This document shows, piece after piece, positions 9,620-18,880 of a stretch of DNA of 64,000 nt. A program made the position numbers and the translations under genes. Below the pieces are notes generated by a model that did no database searches, was not told the origin of the DNA, and worked only from the letters and a program-made list of their open reading frames with translations. Numbering within the stretch: position 1 is the stretch's first letter; each line of letters opens with the position of its first letter. Origin of the DNA: Thermodesulfovibrio yellowstonii DSM 11347 (GTDB lineage: Bacteria; Nitrospirota; Thermodesulfovibrionia; Thermodesulfovibrionales; Thermodesulfovibrionaceae); NCBI RefSeq assembly GCF_000020985.1, contig NC_011296.1, positions 1,168,001 to 1,232,000 on the forward strand. Reading direction: 5' to 3'.

Positions 9620-9648
9620 ACTGCAAATAATACATTTATGGAGGTGTG

Positions 9649-12255
9649 ATGAACCAGAATTACGATTTCAAAAATATAGAGACTAAATGGCAGAATGAAT
9701 GGCTAAAAAATAAACTTTTTGAAGTAAATGAAGATAGCTCAAAACAAAAATTCTACTGCCTTGAGATGTTTCCTTATCCATCAGGAAGAATTCACATGGG
9801 ACACGTTCGTAACTATGCAATTGGTGATGTTATTGCAAGATACAAGAGAATGAAAGGCTTAAAAGTGCTTCATCCGATGGGATGGGATGCTTTCGGACTT
9901 CCTGCAGAAAATGCTGCAATAAAACATGGAGTGCATCCTGCGAAGTGGACATATGAAAACATAGATTATATGAAAAACCAGCTCATAAAACTTGGCTTAA
10001 GCTATGACTGGAGGCGTGAGGTTACTACTTGCAGTCCTGAATACTATAAGTGGAATCAATGGATATTCCTTAAACTTTATGAACGAGGTCTTGCATATAG
10101 AAAATCATCCTTTGTTAACTGGTGTCCTTCTTGTGCAACTGTGCTTGCTAATGAGCAAGTGATTGATGGCGCTTGCTGGAGATGTGAAACTCAGGTTGAG
10201 CAAAAGGAACTTGAGCAGTGGTTTCTGAAAATCACGGCCTATGCTGAAGAACTTCTTAAAGACTGTGATAGACTTACTGGTTGGCCCGAAAAAGTGCTTA
10301 CCATGCAGCGTAACTGGATTGGGAAAAGTGAGGGAGTTGAAGTTGATTTTCCAATTGAAGGCTTGAATGAGGCTTTAAGAATCTTTACAACAAGACCAGA
10401 TACAATTTTTGGTGTAACATTCATGTGTCTGTCTCCAGAGCATCCTTTGGCTGATAGACTCTGTGAAGATAAAGAGGCATTAAGAAGAATAAGGCAGTTA
10501 CAGCGCGAGCCAGAGATAAAAGAAGGAATTTTTACAGGTAAATACGCTATAAATCCTCTAAATGGAGAGAGAGTCCCCATCTGGATTGCCAATTTTGTTC
10601 TTATGGAATACGGAACAGGAGCAATAATGAGTGTTCCAGCCCATGATCAGAGAGACTTTGAGTTTGCTGTAAGATATGGAATTCCAATAAAAGTTGTCAT
10701 AAAACCTAAGGATTCTGAACTTTCAGAGCCTCTTAACGAAGCATTTGAAGATGAAGGTGTAATGGTTAATTCAGGAGAGTTTTCAGGGCTTCCATCCTCT
10801 GAAGGCAAAAAAGCAGTTGCAGATTACATTGAGAAAAAAGGGCTTGGTAAAAAAACTATTAATTACAGACTTCGTGACTGGGGAATTTCAAGACAGCGAT
10901 ATTGGGGTACCCCTATCCCCATAATTTATTGCGAAAAATGCGGAATAGTTCCAGTGCCTGAAAAAGACCTGCCAGTGATTTTGCCAGAGAATATAAGCTT
11001 AACAGGTAAAGGTGAGTCTCCTCTTAAGTATGTTGAGGAGTTTTATAAAACTAAATGCCCCCGTTGTGGTAAAGAGGCAAGAAGAGAAACTGACACTATG
11101 GATACATTTGTTGATTCCTCATGGTATTTTGTAAGATACTGCTCCCTGCAAAATGAAGATGCATTTCACAAAGAAAAAATAAAATACTGGATGCCTGTTG
11201 ACCAATACATTGGTGGAATTGAGCATGCAGTGCTTCATCTACTTTATGCAAGATTTTTTACAAAGGTGCTCAGAGACATTGGTATTGTTCCTTTTGATGA
11301 ACCATTTGAAAGACTTCTTACACAGGGAATGGTTTGCATGGAAAGTTACCGTTGTCCTGAGCATGATTATCTCTTTCCAAAGGAAGTAAAAGATGGAAAA
11401 TGCATTCATTGTGGAAGTTCTGTCACAGTTGGAAGAGTTGAGAAAATGTCCAAATCAAAGAAAAACATTATTGACCCTGATGAAATGATTGAGCAGTATG
11501 GAACAGATACAGTAAGGGTCTTTACCCTCTTTGCAGCACCTCCTGAAAAAGACCTTGAATGGTCTTCTCAGGGAGTTGAAGGTGCTCACAGATTTTTAAA
11601 AAGAGTGTATGCTCTTATTTTTAAACACAATAAATGGATAAGAGAGATACATATAAGTGAGTCAGAGGCAAGCTCCATCGGAATGACAGAGGAAGGTCAT
11701 GCTGAACCTGCTTTTTATTGTCATTCCGAGCCCAAACGTAGTGAGAGCGAGGAATCCCCTATCTCACCTATTATCAGCCTAATCCACCGAACAATTAAGC
11801 GTGTTACTCTTGACATAGAAAAGGAATACCAATTCAACACAGCAATCGCTCGTCTGATGGAATTTGTAAATGAAGTTTATGGATATGAACCAAAAACTGA
11901 GGAAGAACGCAAAGTATTCAAGTTCGCCATAAGAAACTTTCTTATACTTTTAAGTCCCTTCGCTCCTCATATTGCAGAGGAACTCTGGAGAGAAATTGGT
12001 GAGGAGGGTTTTATTTTAAATGAACCCTGGCCCACATATGATGAAGCACTTGCCCGTGAACAGATGATAGAGCTTGTGGTTCAGATAAACGGCAAAGTTC
12101 GTTCAAAAATAATGATTCCTCAAGGTATGAGCGATGAGGAAATAGTGAAAATAGCCCTTGATGACGAAAAAGTAAAACAGTGGGTTAATGGAAAAGAAAT
12201 CCTCAAAGTCATCCCTGTAAAAGGCAAGCTTGTAAACATCGTGGTAGCAAATTGA
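9649..12255 (+). CDS. leuS: Leucyl-tRNA synthetase with in-frame repeat insertion
   Basis: Charges tRNA-Leu. Class I signature HMGH at residues 49-52 (in [14 protein letters not shown]), KMSKS at 599-603, Zn-ribbon-like cysteine pairs (CPSC and CWRC; CEKC), and a CP1 editing domain with TTRPDTIFG. Start ATG 9649 is preferred over GTG 9646 because of GGAGG spacing. Residues about 677-704 are encoded by a copy of the palindromic repeat ([14 protein letters not shown]), inserted in frame just before the anticodon-binding domain. Total length is 868 aa. The C-terminal domain is intact, so the enzyme is presumably functional. It overlaps the DUF4258 gene by TTGA. Confidence 0.97.
11678..11760 (+). 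repeat. Palindromic repeat copy inside leuS
   Basis: Inverted arms TCGGAATGACA (11678-11688) and TGTCATTCCGA (11719-11729) flank 30 bp; the right arm continues into GAGCGAGGAATCCCCT ending at 11760. The pattern is that of the repeats at 15.5, 18.0-18.8, 20.4 and 22.7 kb, but here it stays open in the leuS frame. Confidence 0.85.
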
Positions 12256-12758: not shown

Positions 12759-13205
12759 ATGAAGCTCATTAATGAAATCGCAGAAAAATATAAAATTTCC
12801 TTGATTTATCTTTTCGGTTCACAGGCTGAATTAGGTGAGAGATATCTTCATGGTGAAGATATAAAACCTGAGCCTTATTCTGACCTTGACATAGCAGTGC
12901 TTTTTGAAGAAATTCCTGAAAACATTATAAAAACCTACGGTGAACTCTATCGTGACCTTTGCTTTGTCTTTGAACCCTTTGAGATAGACCTTGTTTTTAT
13001 GCATGAACAGGATTCACTTTTTCAGTATGAAATTATAAAGGGCGTACGCATCTATGCAAAAGATGAAGATTTTGCCGATGAGTATGAGGAGCTTGTAATG
13101 AAAAAGGCTTCTGATTTAAGTTTTAAACAAAAAGAATTCATAAAAGATGTATTAGAGGCAATTGAAGATGGTTATTTCCAGTTTGAATATAAAGCGAATA
13201 GTTGA
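12759..13205 (+). CDS. mntA: MntA-type nucleotidyltransferase antitoxin
   Basis: A 148-aa minimal nucleotidyltransferase. In type VII toxin-antitoxin systems MntA adenylylates and silences HepT. The core LFGSQAELG is followed by SDLDIAVLF, and a third acidic residue sits in FEIDLVFM. The GS-to-DxD distance is 20 residues rather than the usual 10, because ERYLHGEDIKPEP lies between. Catalysis is likely but not certain. It overlaps hepT, the usual arrangement. Confidence 0.85.
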   Translation: MKLINEIAEKYKISLIYLFGSQAELGERYLHGEDIKPEPYSDLDIAVLFEEIPENIIKTYGELYRDLCFVFEPFEIDLVFMHEQDSLFQYEIIKGVRIYAKDEDFADEYEELVMKKASDLSFKQKEFIKDVLEAIEDGYFQFEYKANS

Positions 13206-13620
13206 TTTAATTGGCTTTATAGAGGAATGTCTTAATGAATTGAAAATTTTTCAAAGCATTTCAGAAGAGGAATTTCTCTCTGATAAAAGAAACCCGGCTT
13301 ATGTAGAGAGCTATTTAAGGCGAACCCTTGAGGCTATGTTTGACATTAGCAGACATATCCTTGCTAAAACTTATGGATATAAAGAGCTTGAATACAAAAA
13401 AATCGCCAAAGAATTAGGCAACAAAGGAGTAGTTAATCAGGAACTGTCAGAAAAACTTTTCTTGATGGCAGGTTATCGTAATAGAATGGTACATTTTTAT
13501 AGAGAGATTACTCCATCTGAACTGTTTAATATTGTAAGGAATAATTTAACTGATGTGGAAGAATTTATAAGACAGATAAAACATTTTATAGAGTCATACA
13601 GCAAGGAGATTAAATTATGA
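13168..13620 (+). CDS. hepT: HepT-like ribonuclease toxin (DUF86)
   Basis: About 150 aa, all-helical HEPN protein. The RNase motif R-x4-H-x-Y is present as RNRMVHFY. The family's earlier signature RRTLEAMFDISRHIL is also clear. With MntA it forms a type VII toxin-antitoxin pair. The start is uncertain: ATG 13168, or TTG 13183 giving NIKRIVDLIGF, which looks more like the family N-terminus; TTG 13162 is also open. All overlap mntA. Its stop overlaps the lptE start by 4 nt. Confidence 0.85.
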   Translation: MVISSLNIKRIVDLIGFIEECLNELKIFQSISEEEFLSDKRNPAYVESYLRRTLEAMFDISRHILAKTYGYKELEYKKIAKELGNKGVVNQELSEKLFLMAGYRNRMVHFYREITPSELFNIVRNNLTDVEEFIRQIKHFIESYSKEIKL

Positions 13621-14152: not shown

Positions 14153-15004
14153 ATGCTTGAAATAGAAAAACTTGAACAGGAAATAAAAGAAAAACTCCCA
14201 AAAAGAATGTATTTTTGCTATGCTCAGGATACTTTTCTTCTGTTTGAGGTTACAAGGCTTGTCCGTAAAAACTTTGACCCAGTAGTAATTGAGACCTATG
14301 AATCTCCTGAAGAACTTGATATCACATCTTTCGCCTCACCATCTTTATTTTCTTCAAAAACAGTTCTGCTAATTTACAACTTTGAAAAAATAAAAAAGAC
14401 TGAAAAAAGAATTGAATGGCTCAAAAAAATTACATCACAGGTGCATAGCTCTATCAGTCTTATTCTTCTTTGTAATGCTTCATATAAAGAAATATCTGAT
14501 GAGATAGCCTATTTAAAAAAAGATAAAAACTCTCTCCTTTATAATCTTGATCTAAAGAAAGAAGATTTACCAACATGGATAGCGTATAAGGCAAGTCAGA
14601 ATGGCATCACGCTAAAGCAGGATGCAATTTACTATTTGATAGACATAACAGGAGGGCAGCCGGGTTTAATTTCGTCTGAGATAGAAAAAATATCGCTTTT
14701 GACAGATAAATCTCACATTGGGCTTTTTGATATTAAAGATATTTTGACAGAACTTGGTGAATTCACAGCCTTTGATCTTATTGATGCAATAAAGAAAAAA
14801 GACAAAGAAAGAGCATACAGGTTGATTGATAAACTCCAAAATACAGAGCCAGATATGATTTTGGGTGCATTAAACTGGTATTATACAAACAGAGTTAATG
14901 CAGACCCAAGTGTTTATAATCTGCTTTACAGAACAAATCTTTCATTAAGGCAGGCTCGCTCTTGCAGCCTTGAGATGCTTTTATATGAGTTGCTTAAAGA
15001 TTAA
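14153..15004 (+). CDS. holA: DNA polymerase III delta subunit
   Basis: A 283-aa clamp-loader subunit, shorter than the usual ~330-340 aa. The N-terminus KRMYFCYAQDTFLLFEVTRL and the region TFDLIDAI-like FTAFDLIDAIKKKDKERAY (about 200-218) match HolA. The C-terminal collar domain seems trimmed (ends LRQARSCSLEMLLYELLKD). It opens the beta clamp for replication. It lies directly after lptE. Confidence 0.85.
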   Translation: MLEIEKLEQEIKEKLPKRMYFCYAQDTFLLFEVTRLVRKNFDPVVIETYESPEELDITSFASPSLFSSKTVLLIYNFEKIKKTEKRIEWLKKITSQVHSSISLILLCNASYKEISDEIAYLKKDKNSLLYNLDLKKEDLPTWIAYKASQNGITLKQDAIYYLIDITGGQPGLISSEIEKISLLTDKSHIGLFDIKDILTELGEFTAFDLIDAIKKKDKERAYRLIDKLQNTEPDMILGALNWYYTNRVNADPSVYNLLYRTNLSLRQARSCSLEMLLYELLKD

Positions 15005-15024: not shown

Positions 15025-15417
15025 ATGGAAATGGAAGCAAAATTAAAAAAAGCGTTTATAAATTTAGAAAACTACCATGATAAACTTCAAATAGAATTCG
15101 CCTATTTATTCGGCTCTTATGCTGAAGGTAATTATGCTCCAACAAGTGACATTGATCTGGCAGTTTATTTTGTTTCAAATCCTTCCTTGGATGAAGAGCT
15201 TTCCTTACATGTTTTTTTAACAAAGCAGCTTAAAACTGACAAAATTGACCTTTTAGTATTAAATCGGACAAAAAATTTGATTCTTCTTGAAGAAATTATA
15301 AGAAAGGGTAAAGTTATTTATGACAGAATTTCAGAATTACGAAAAATGTTTGAATGTAAAGTTATTCACAATTCAATTGATTTTAAAATCCAGAGAAAAG
15401 TTTTTGCAGGAAGATGA
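15025..15417 (+). CDS. MntA-type nucleotidyltransferase without intact partner
   Basis: A 130-aa minimal nucleotidyltransferase with a canonical active site: LFGSYAEGNYAPTSDIDLAV gives GS-x10-DxD, and KIDLLVLNR supplies the third acidic residue. Unlike the 12.8-kb MntA there is no insertion in the loop. The expected overlapping hepT start (ATGA at 15414-15417) is present, but that frame stops after 17 codons in a repeat cluster. This is probably an orphan antitoxin. A start at ATG 15031 is also possible. Confidence 0.85.
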   Translation: MEMEAKLKKAFINLENYHDKLQIEFAYLFGSYAEGNYAPTSDIDLAVYFVSNPSLDEELSLHVFLTKQLKTDKIDLLVLNRTKNLILLEEIIRKGKVIYDRISELRKMFECKVIHNSIDFKIQRKVFAGR

Positions 15418-15799
15418 GAGAATCAATCAGAGTCAAGATTGAAAGAATAGAACGTTCTTCAAAATGACACTTCATTTTGTCATTCTGAGGGGGCTCAACG
15501 CCTCCGAAGAATCTCTGATTTACTCCGTTATAGAAAAAAGAAAAGATTCCTCGGCACGGATGTGCCTCGGAATGACCAAAAAACATAATGATTAGGAAAA
15601 AGGAGAGATTCCTCTTTCCGCGGTCACTCTATTAGGAATGCCCCCTCTTGTCACCCCCAGCGATAGAGAGGGGTCTCCTCATTGGAAACGATGTGGATTT
15701 TGCGCTCCGTTCGGAATAAGAATTTGTGAAGAAATTCTTAAAAAGCTTCCTGATGTAAATAAATATTTAACTTATATTAAAGACTTTATGAATTTCTGA
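15414..15799 (+). pseudogene. Putative hepT remnant broken by repeats
   Basis: ATG 15414 overlaps the mntA-like stop and reads MRESIRVKIERIERSSK before a stop at 15467, resembling a HepT N-terminus. A second open segment, 15719-15799, reads RICEEILKKLPDVNKYLTYI and ends near a plausible C-terminus. Between them lie degenerate copies of the palindromic repeat (15478-15718). The R-x4-H-x-Y core is missing. Identification as hepT rests on position, the ATGA overlap and short similarity only. Confidence 0.5.
15478..15718. repeat. Palindromic repeat cluster A
   Basis: At least three recognisable copies: TGTCATTCTGAGG...CGAAGAATCTC (15478-15516); an inverted copy with arms CTCGGCAC/GTGCCTCGG (15545-15577); and CACCCCCAGCGATAGAGAGG (15651-15670). 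Degenerate pieces lie at 15602-15643 and 15701-15718. The cluster fills the gap inside the hepT remnant. No other gene is seen in 15468-15718. Confidence 0.75.
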
Positions 15800-17105
15800 T
15801 TCTCTCAGCCCACCAGATAGCTTTGTCAATCAGTTCATCCTCATCAATAAACTGATGCCTTCCGTTAAGGATTACTAGAATACCATTAACAAAGACATCT
15901 TCAATGTCTGAAGCTTTTGCAGAGTAAATTATTGTGGAATATATATCATAAACTGGCTGCAAATGAGGTTTTCTAAGATTCATAAGCACCAAATCCGCCC
16001 TTTTACCAGTTTCTATGCTTCCAATTTCTTTTTCAACTCCCAGTGATTCTGCTGCCCATATTGTGAGCATTTTCATGCAGGTTTTTACATCAAGCACAGT
16101 CGGGTCTGCTGTTATTCCCTTTTGCACCTTTGCAGCTATTGAGATTTCTTCAAGGAGGTCAAGGTTGTTATTGCTTGCTGCACCATCTGTCCCCATGCTA
16201 ACTTTCACACCTTTTTTAATCATTTTTGCCACAGGTGCTATCCCACTTGAAAGCTTAAGATTGCTTTCTATGCAGTGGGAAACTCCTATATTTCTCTCTG
16301 CCATAATGTCAATCTCCTCATCATCAAGCCACACTGAATGGGCTGCGGTTATTCTGCCTTCAAGAAATCCTATATTCTTCAGATATTTGACAGGTCTTTT
16401 ACCATTATTTTTAAGGCATTCTTCAACTTCATGAAATGTTTCACTTAAATGAATATGAATGGGCACATTATTTTTCAATGCAAGTTCTTTTGATTTAAGA
16501 AGTGTTTCCCTGCTACACGTATAAATGGCATGAGGTGCAACTGCTGGCAGTATGAGTTCATCACTTTTGTATTTTTCAATGAATTCCTTTGCCTTGGCAA
16601 GATAATCATCAGCACCTTTGCCTGAGGCTGTGGGAAAATCAAGAACCCCCTGCCCTACAACAGCTCTTATTCCAAGCTTTTTTGCTGCCTGAGCAATTGC
16701 CTCAGTGAAGAAATACATATCATTGAAAGTTGTTGTTCCACTTTTTAGCATTTCAATGCATGCCAACGATGTTCCATCATGGACAAACTCAGGACTTAGA
16801 AATTTTGCCTCCTTAGGCCATATATGCTCTGTAAGCCACTGCTTAAGAGGCAGGTCATCGGCAATCCCTCTGAATAAAACCATAGCAGCATGGGTGTGGG
16901 TGTTTATAAATCCTGGCATCAGTGCTGAATAGGAATTGCCATAAACAGGAATTGAAGGGTCTTTATATTTCTTTAAAATTTCTGTAAACTCACCAACATC
17001 CTTAATTCTTCCATCTTCAACAACCAAAGCACCATTTTCAATTACTTCATCTTTCTTATTCATAGTAAGCAGATACTGTGCTCTGACTATAAAGGTTTTT
17101 CCCAC
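15786..17105 (-). CDS. mqnX: Amidohydrolase: aminofutalosine deaminase or MTA/SAH deaminase
   Basis: A 439-aa metal-dependent deaminase of the MtaD/Ssn family. Metal ligands: HTHAAM near residue 68, HIHLSE near 215, AHSVW near 255 and GTDGAASNN near 303. GTG 17105 has AGGAGG upstream. In futalosine-pathway organisms a member of this family deaminates 6-amino-6-deoxyfutalosine (MqnX). The adjacent UbiA-type prenyltransferase and the mqnD gene at 52.5 kb favour that role, but 5-methylthioadenosine/SAH deaminase (mtaD) cannot be excluded from sequence. Confidence 0.8.
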   Translation of the reverse strand: MGKTFIVRAQYLLTMNKKDEVIENGALVVEDGRIKDVGEFTEILKKYKDPSIPVYGNSYSALMPGFINTHTHAAMVLFRGIADDLPLKQWLTEHIWPKEAKFLSPEFVHDGTSLACIEMLKSGTTTFNDMYFFTEAIAQAAKKLGIRAVVGQGVLDFPTASGKGADDYLAKAKEFIEKYKSDELILPAVAPHAIYTCSRETLLKSKELALKNNVPIHIHLSETFHEVEECLKNNGKRPVKYLKNIGFLEGRITAAHSVWLDDEEIDIMAERNIGVSHCIESNLKLSSGIAPVAKMIKKGVKVSMGTDGAASNNNLDLLEEISIAAKVQKGITADPTVLDVKTCMKMLTIWAAESLGVEKEIGSIETGKRADLVLMNLRKPHLQPVYDIYSTIIYSAKASDIEDVFVNGILVILNGRHQFIDEDELIDKAIWWAERIRNS

Positions 17106-17993: not shown

Positions 17994-18042
17994 TGATTTA
18001 TTTTTTACCACTCACCCACTTTTCCAGTAATGGAACAACTCA

Positions 18043-18825
18043 GAGATTCTGAGGGGTCATTGAGACCCCTCAGAATGACAAAAAGAGAATCCTTCCGTCT
18101 TCTTTTGTCATCCTGTTAATGCCCCTCCCGCGCATTATTCTGAGTGCATCCAATTTCCTATTATTCCGCCTGTTCCTGTTATTCCGAGGAACCCTTTTTC
18201 TGTCATTGCAAAGAGCGTTCCCTTTTCTGTCATTCCAAGGATTGTTTTTTCTTGTCATTCCGAACGGAGTGAGGAATCTCCTCCTCTATGTCTCTATAAT
18301 TCAACAAAGTGTATTCAAAAGGATACATTCAACCAGAACAAAAATCCTTAAAATTCAATACTCGCCCTCTGGCAGAAAAATTGCATAGTACATTAATGTT
18401 GTTCTTTAACAGTTTTTTCTGTCATTCCGAGGCACGAAGTGCCGAGGAATCTCCTCCCTCTGAGCAGAAGAGACTCCTCGCTATCGCTCGGAGTGACAAA
18501 ATGCGCTGTCATTCCGAGGAGCGACAGCGACGAGGAATCCCCTCTTGACAGGGGAGGAGAAGTGTGATAAACTATTCAAAAACTTACTCAAAAAGGAGGT
18601 GAGAGGTAAACACGGTGCAAGCAGTAGGGAGACTCTTCGGGACGATGTCCCTCAGAGTGACAGAAAATAGAGTAATTCCGAAATGAGTTACCTATCCTGT
18701 CATTCCGAGGAACGACGAGGAATCTCCTGCAGGAGTCATCCCGAGCGATAGCGAGGGAACTCCTAAGCGTCCTTGTGAGACGATAGGCAGTTTGTCATTC
18801 CTAGGGCTTTAGCCCGAGGAATCTC
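18043..18825. repeat. Palindromic repeat cluster B
   Basis: An 870-bp gene-free region (18012-18880) packed with 30-38-bp palindromes of form TGTCATTCCGAGG-N-CGAGGAATCTC in both orientations. Clear copies lie at 18043-18080, 18253-18280, 18420-18453, 18470-18498, 18507-18540, 18629-18662, 18698-18727, 18734-18763 and 18793-18825; weaker ones lie in 18110-18250. The inner parts vary but remain self-complementary (for example GGCACGAAGTGCC). Spacing is irregular, so this is not CRISPR. Open frames here are repeat translations. Confidence 0.9.
18606..18619 (+). repeat. Left arm of inverted repeat flanking the porin
   Basis: GTAAACACGGTGCA lies upstream of the porin gene. The reverse complement, TGCACCGTGTTTGC, lies downstream at 20410-20423. 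They match over 12-13 bp and are 1.8 kb apart. Confidence 0.55.
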
Positions 18826-18834
18826 TTGTCTTAC

Positions 18835-18851
18835 CACCGTCTTTGACGGTG
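18835..18851 (+). promoter_or_regulatory. 5' UTR hairpin before porin
   Basis: CACCGTC-TTT-GACGGTG forms a perfect 7-bp stem with a 3-nt loop, ending 18 nt before the GGAGG that precedes GTG 18881. It could protect a long-lived porin mRNA or control its translation; there is no U-tract, so it is not a terminator. Confidence 0.45.
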
Positions 18852-18880
18852 TAACTGAACTAACCGATGGAGGTTAGGAA

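Follow-up and report, generated by a model that had tools for sequence, protein, structure and literature searches.

Very probably, a HepT/MntA toxin–antitoxin module is decaying on the chromosome of Thermodesulfovibrio yellowstonii DSM 11347. The toxin gene hepT has lost its core, where genome-wide palindromic repeats now stand, while the antitoxin gene mntA would have been spared because prior loss of the toxin does no harm and prior loss of the antitoxin does. The result is an orphan antitoxin gene, here called mntA2, that is itself expected to decay. The locus lies in a 64,000-nucleotide stretch of DNA (the window) of a genome that consists of a single contig of 2,003,803 bases. It is bounded by a holA-like gene and a convergent amidohydrolase gene, whose 3′ end overlaps the tail of hepT by 14 nt (Table 1). 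For the genes that we call holA (DNA polymerase III delta), lptE and acsB, these names are our own assumption. An initial annotation of the DNA had proposed a hepT gene destroyed by repeat insertion next to an orphan antitoxin. The reading of a dead hepT and an orphan antitoxin is right; the system is already known, and the locus is a clear further case of its decay, an ordinary loss of a toxin–antitoxin pair at an unusually readable stage.

Table 1. Position and supporting evidence of the features discussed in the text; coordinates are those of the window unless a separate locus (L) is given.
Feature	Position	Strand	Evidence
Repeat unit within open leuS frame (leuS 9646-12255)	11718..11763	+	35.4 bits, model built without this unit
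Intact mntA–hepT pair, distant relative, contrast case (hepT open frame 13162-13620)	12759..13620	+	Polbeta 2e-14; HepT-like 1.9e-24
holA-like gene, left flank	14153..15004	+	Matches in 10 of 16 genus genomes
mntA2 (antitoxin), complete MNT-type nucleotidyltransferase	15025..15417	+	Pfam Polbeta 3.8e-21, NTP_transf_2 1.1e-11
hepT N-terminal remnant, 13 codons	15414..15452	+	HepT column 0; ATGA junction as in relatives
Palindromic repeat cluster, 266 nt, in place of about 97 HepT codons	15453..15718	.	Covariance-model units and partial units
Partial repeat unit	about 15453-15473		Seen by eye
Repeat unit	15477-15520	+	Covariance model; among its training rows
Repeat unit	15538-15578	-	Covariance model; among its training rows
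Repeat unit, weak	15600-15644	-	Covariance model
Repeat unit	15648-15682	+	Covariance model; among its training rows
Partial repeat unit	about 15696-15722		Seen by eye
hepT C-terminal remnant, 26 codons and stop	15719..15799	+	HepT columns 111-136
Amidohydrolase, right flank, convergent	15786..17105	-	Pfam Amidohydro_1 7.5e-83; adjoins holA in six other genus genomes
Heptosyltransferase-like frame with repeat	L141 262-1305		Pfam
CODH/acetyl-CoA synthase subunit-like frame with repeat	L143 1-1059		Pfam
HypF-like frame with repeat	L144 2-1501		Pfam

Both ends of hepT are present and its core is absent

The ATG at 15414 overlaps the mntA2 stop codon (15415-15417) as ATGA, a junction already pointed out in the initial annotation and found in relatives as well. 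The frame that it opens runs for 17 codons to a stop. All 17 had been taken as HepT-like; about 13 of them are, and the rest is already repeat. We scored the two remnants with a position-specific matrix built from nine full-length HepT relatives, against all six-frame peptides of the window. The N-terminal peptide, MRESIRVKIERIE, ranks first of 61,801 13-mers, with 1 of 3000 permutations reaching its score, and the C-terminal peptide, RICEEILKKLPDVNKYLTYIKDFMNF, ranks first of 37,205 26-mers, with 0 of 3000. The segment previously described as C-terminus-like is the best match in the window to its own end of HepT, as is the N-terminal one to the other end. In agreement with this, a whole-genome search with the HepT of a relative matched 15719-15793 (residues 112-136, 52% identity, E = 0.19).

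HepT columns 13-110, about 97 codons, are absent. They include the RNase/AMP-acceptor motif RX4HXY, which reads RNFLAHDY or similar in relatives; only columns 0-12 and 111-136 are left, and no HepT with this motif neighbours mntA2. The two hepT ends, the ATGA junction and the identity of mntA2 with the mntA of intact pairs show that the locus descends from an mntA–hepT pair. Judging from its sequence, the locus is a remnant and not a working HepT/MntA module. A chimeric open reading frame at 15638-15799 (53 aa) is spurious, with its start inside a repeat.

The C-terminal remnant is no more diverged than expected from the divergence of mntA. Compared with nine intact systems, the residuals range from -2.0 to +0.8 sd, eight of the nine being positive, which suggests that the loss of hepT is recent.

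Repeats replace the toxin core

The hepT core is replaced by repeats, not merely interrupted. A simple insertion is rejected by the balance of the locus, from which about 97 codons are gone while 266 nt stand in their stead. The initial annotation correctly placed repeat copies in the middle of the gene, where we find four covariance-model units and two partial units. Its phrase "destroyed by repeat insertion" holds in that hepT is dead and its gap carries repeats, but the missing codons make this a replacement and not a split gene.

Within the decay scenario, a repeat insertion might have been the first hit on hepT, with recombination between units or a later deletion removing the middle. Repeats are found at the same position in another genome of the genus (G007), and the same repeat type occurs inside the open frames of other genes. 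In G032, from another family, hepT breaks off at about codon 81, and repeat-like TGTCACCCTGAG heads come after it (L009 1830-2346). However, the stretch 3′ of the G032 hepT scores only 13.5 bits (E = 0.29), and the model has zero matches in the stretches searched at nine further sites of the order where hepT is broken or gone (L093, L094, L099, L101, L014, L107, L112, L125, and L049). With a single sequence of the locus to judge from, we lean slightly against a repeat as the first hit; the repeats may instead have colonised the debris of hepT later. The G032 locus also shows strong repeat matches upstream of its open mntA.

The retained antitoxin gene

mntA2 is whole and retains GSX10DXD as GSYAEGNYAPTSDID, and its partner is absent at the locus, so that the earlier description of an orphan antitoxin stands. 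The motif definitions, GSX10DXD for MntA and RX4HXY for HepT, are those in the available text of PMC7641770. Measured against the Class I HepT/MntA systems as presented there, the locus is alike in its upstream mntA, its ATGA-linked hepT (here a remnant) and the GSX10DXD of mntA. It is unlike them in that RX4HXY and most of HepT are gone, and the toxin would not work.

mntA2 is 62% identical to a relative that is trailed by a hepT start. Close MntA relatives (E ≤ 1e-15) are present in 6 of 61 genomes, its own included, and in none of the other 15 genus genomes; a scan of genome contigs for relatives returned only L015, which is distant. In most cases hepT lies directly 3′ of the closest MntA relatives, often with the same ATGA junction. 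A plasmid or phage source was considered and rejected, as no relative was found among 72,556 plasmid and 50,697 phage records at E ≤ 1e-5.

The orphan might be kept by selection, for example by neutralising HepT toxins that come from other modules or from incoming DNA (anti-addiction), or by modifying another protein. This would be in line with the conservation of mntA2, which keeps 31 of 33 near-invariant columns (11 relatives), with both changes conservative and a branch that is not long. The genome also contains at least nine other MNT/HEPN pairs in which RX4-6HXY is present, two of them identical copies, and the mntA genes of the order that lack an intact hepT are mostly still open (10 of 11). 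However, a recent loss of hepT explains the same data, the C-terminal fragment of this one strain being no more diverged than intact relatives predict. Moreover, only a relic of the mntA2 orthologue survives in G007 and almost nothing of it in G012, and no relative was found among the plasmid and phage records. Selection for the orphan seems unlikely to us. Under the preferred decay scenario, mntA2 would be an orphan without a local substrate, expected to follow the path already taken in G007 and G012.

The same junction in other Thermodesulfovibrio genomes

The holA matches in ten genus genomes include the window genome, and the junction was compared in the nine others. The amidohydrolase directly follows holA in six of them (G014, G009, G012, G001, G011, and G004); in G003, G013, and G007 it was not found in the flanking stretch examined. 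An intact mntA–hepT pair at this exact site is found in none of the genomes examined. The search of relatives proposed in the initial annotation thus recovers intact, ATGA-linked pairs in related families but none at this location, and no unrelated intact gene was found to stand in their place.

Two junctions retain traces of mntA. In G007, an mntA relic (ends kept, core deleted and shifted) leads through an ATGA junction into four repeat units, and the downstream neighbour differs from that in the window. G012 carries an mntA scar of ~50 nt, with an alignment score of 62, whereas the best of 300 shuffles reaches 31. Its sister G009 has no scar in the junction, and the match in G014 is not significant, 34 of 300 shuffles being as good; in shuffle-tested junction alignments, a scar is unsupported in G014, G009, G001, and G003. 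In the tree of locus proteins G007, G014, G009, and G012 group together with the window genome next to them, the deep nodes having bootstrap values of 51-62. Given the junctions of G009 and G014, the placement of a pair in the ancestor of these genomes rests on this tree. In an alignment of the repeat clusters of G007 and the window, 34 of 598 control stretches did equally well, so that a shared origin of the two clusters is no more than possible.

We infer from the relic and the scar that an intact mntA–hepT pair would once have stood between holA and the convergent amidohydrolase. Part of the genus probably inherited it from a common ancestor, and it then decayed several times. Independent arrivals at the same spot could produce a similar pattern, but the holA–mntA spacer of the window can be aligned with that of G007, and one arrival followed by several decays is the simplest reading. 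That the fragments are chance matches or belong to a different gene, in a stretch of mere intergenic repeat, has a negligible probability: they are short (13 and 26 codons) and Pfam assigns 0 families to the C-terminal one by itself, but both are the top-ranked six-frame peptides of the window, each at its proper HepT end, and they start at the ATGA position of the relatives.

Since the junctions of relatives are empty or hold a relic or a scar, the loss belongs to a clade-wide decay and not only to this genome. The stages form a series for one toxin–antitoxin module, from intact pairs elsewhere in the order, through a gutted hepT beside a whole mntA (window) and an mntA gutted too (G007), to a scar (G012) and the empty junctions of the others. 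A similar course is reportedly known from the chromosomal ccdO157 module of E. coli, for which Mine et al. are said to have described in 2009 an inactivated toxin, a persisting antitoxin and stepwise loss at the site in relatives. The present module differs in toxin–antitoxin family and phylum, and in the replacement of its lost part by repeats. The idea that toxin–antitoxin systems decay and lose toxin function is already present in the available text of PMC7167474 and PMC2701414. The latter, in the same portion, presents solo toxins and antitoxins as abundant and describes syntenic sites in Thermus and Deinococcus that may or may not carry a HEPN–MNT system. Unlike those solo antitoxins, mntA2 is accompanied by remnants that reveal which half went first.

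A further mntA–hepT pair lies at 12.8-13.6 kb, between leuS and lptE, and its HepT is intact, as had been noted initially. G007 has a counterpart at 78-79% identity. In G003 and G013 leuS is close to lptE, which makes this a second site of gain or loss within a few kb of the 15-kb locus.

Toxin and antitoxin loss across the order

In 176 genomes of the order, MntA2 has matches (E ≤ 1e-10) at 52 sites spread over 40 genomes, and all of these sites were examined. After three at contig edges were dropped and G096, with a frameshifted mntA, was set aside, 48 open mntA genes remained. Ten of the 48 lack an intact hepT: those of the window, G032, G094, G095, G078, G158, G043:C29, G022:C61, G011, and G019, the downstream DNA being assessed over only 158 nt for G095 and 298 nt for G022:C61. 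The corresponding search with HepT (E ≤ 1e-12) gave 40 sites spread over 32 genomes. Three sites were dropped, two because hepT is itself broken and one because it lies at a contig start. Of the 37 open hepT genes that remained, 36 have an mntA neighbour on one side or the other, and one (G082) lacks its own.

The asymmetry (10/48 versus 1/37) gives a Fisher p of 0.020, or 0.037 with lineages collapsed (9 versus 1), for rows that are not independent, as both searches share pairs, and for classes assigned by motif, open frame and eye. The count favours loss of the toxin before the antitoxin and fits toxin-first decay, in which mntA would be the half that is spared. The intact hepT of G082 (L117 1171-1608) lies among other HEPN and MNT genes and is the only case against toxin-first loss.

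A palindromic repeat family within and between genes

Based on 14 window units, the repeat is a palindrome of ~40 nt with a GTC head, a 5-bp stem that is interrupted by GA on each side (a tandem-GA break), and an inner stem that varies. Variants of the 5-bp stem include ATTCC/GGAAT, ACTCC/GGAGT, ACCCC/GGGGT, and others. The paired columns covary (score 0.446, compared with 0.204 for shuffled data, none of 500 shuffles scoring as high), in part by construction, as the structure was drawn from the same sequences. With 150 of 721 candidates scored, the genome contains at least 135 matches at E ≤ 0.01 and at least 154 at E ≤ 1. All 16 genus genomes have matches to the model, from 3 to at least 154 each.

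As a short palindromic repeat in many copies, the family falls under the description of REP sequences. A REP/RAYT origin was rejected, since a search of the genome for the Y1-type transposase (PF01797) gave 0 matches; the control search matched 5 of 14 known genomes. A 2025 survey of REPs tabulates 873 of them for T. yellowstonii DSM 11347, and its available text gives no motif for this strain. In a literature search with the letters of the repeat head, none of the best 20 of 61 papers is about such repeats, judged by title, and a search with peptides of the repeat frames found no paper.

Members of the family also lie in frame within protein genes. The leuS loop that contains the repeat-derived residues is shorter in G013, which has no insert, and G003 has a related insert. 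We sampled 20 top-scoring units from outside the window, and five of them sit in a frame that runs for 120 codons or more without a stop; three of these frames have Pfam assignments (Table 1), and the remaining two (L148 and L154) look repeat-rich or uncharacterised. The repeat in the acetyl-CoA synthase subunit is located in a loop of varying length (11 genus orthologues) and causes no net insertion, so it may have replaced loop residues instead of adding any.

The in-frame position within conserved genes (leuS and three of the 20 sampled top-scoring repeats) is reminiscent of the Rickettsia palindromic elements, which the available text of PMC10969869 describes as palindromic repeats of about 150 bp in frame inside protein genes. 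Compared by description only, the units here differ in their length of about 40 nt and their tandem-GA stem break. In-frame repeats inside essential enzymes may be of more interest to the selfish-DNA field than the orphan mntA2. A broader proposal, which we regard as improbable when taken as a whole, is that this ~40-nt family with its tandem-GA break is spreading in Thermodesulfovibrio with no Y1 transposase encoded in the genome and enters genes in frame (leuS, the CODH/acetyl-CoA synthase subunit, hypF, and the heptosyltransferase) like Rickettsia palindromic elements. By entering toxin genes, it would drive toxin-first decay of HEPN/MNT systems and leave orphan MntA proteins that are possibly antidotes to other HepT.

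Repeats are also dense elsewhere in the window, with nine units in both orientations between two genes at 18020-18860. The two identical mntA–hepT copies of this genome (L002 and L003, G000:C1 at about 1508 kb and 1560 kb) are 51,203 bases apart, and repeat matches recur at the same spacing, making a large duplication likely.
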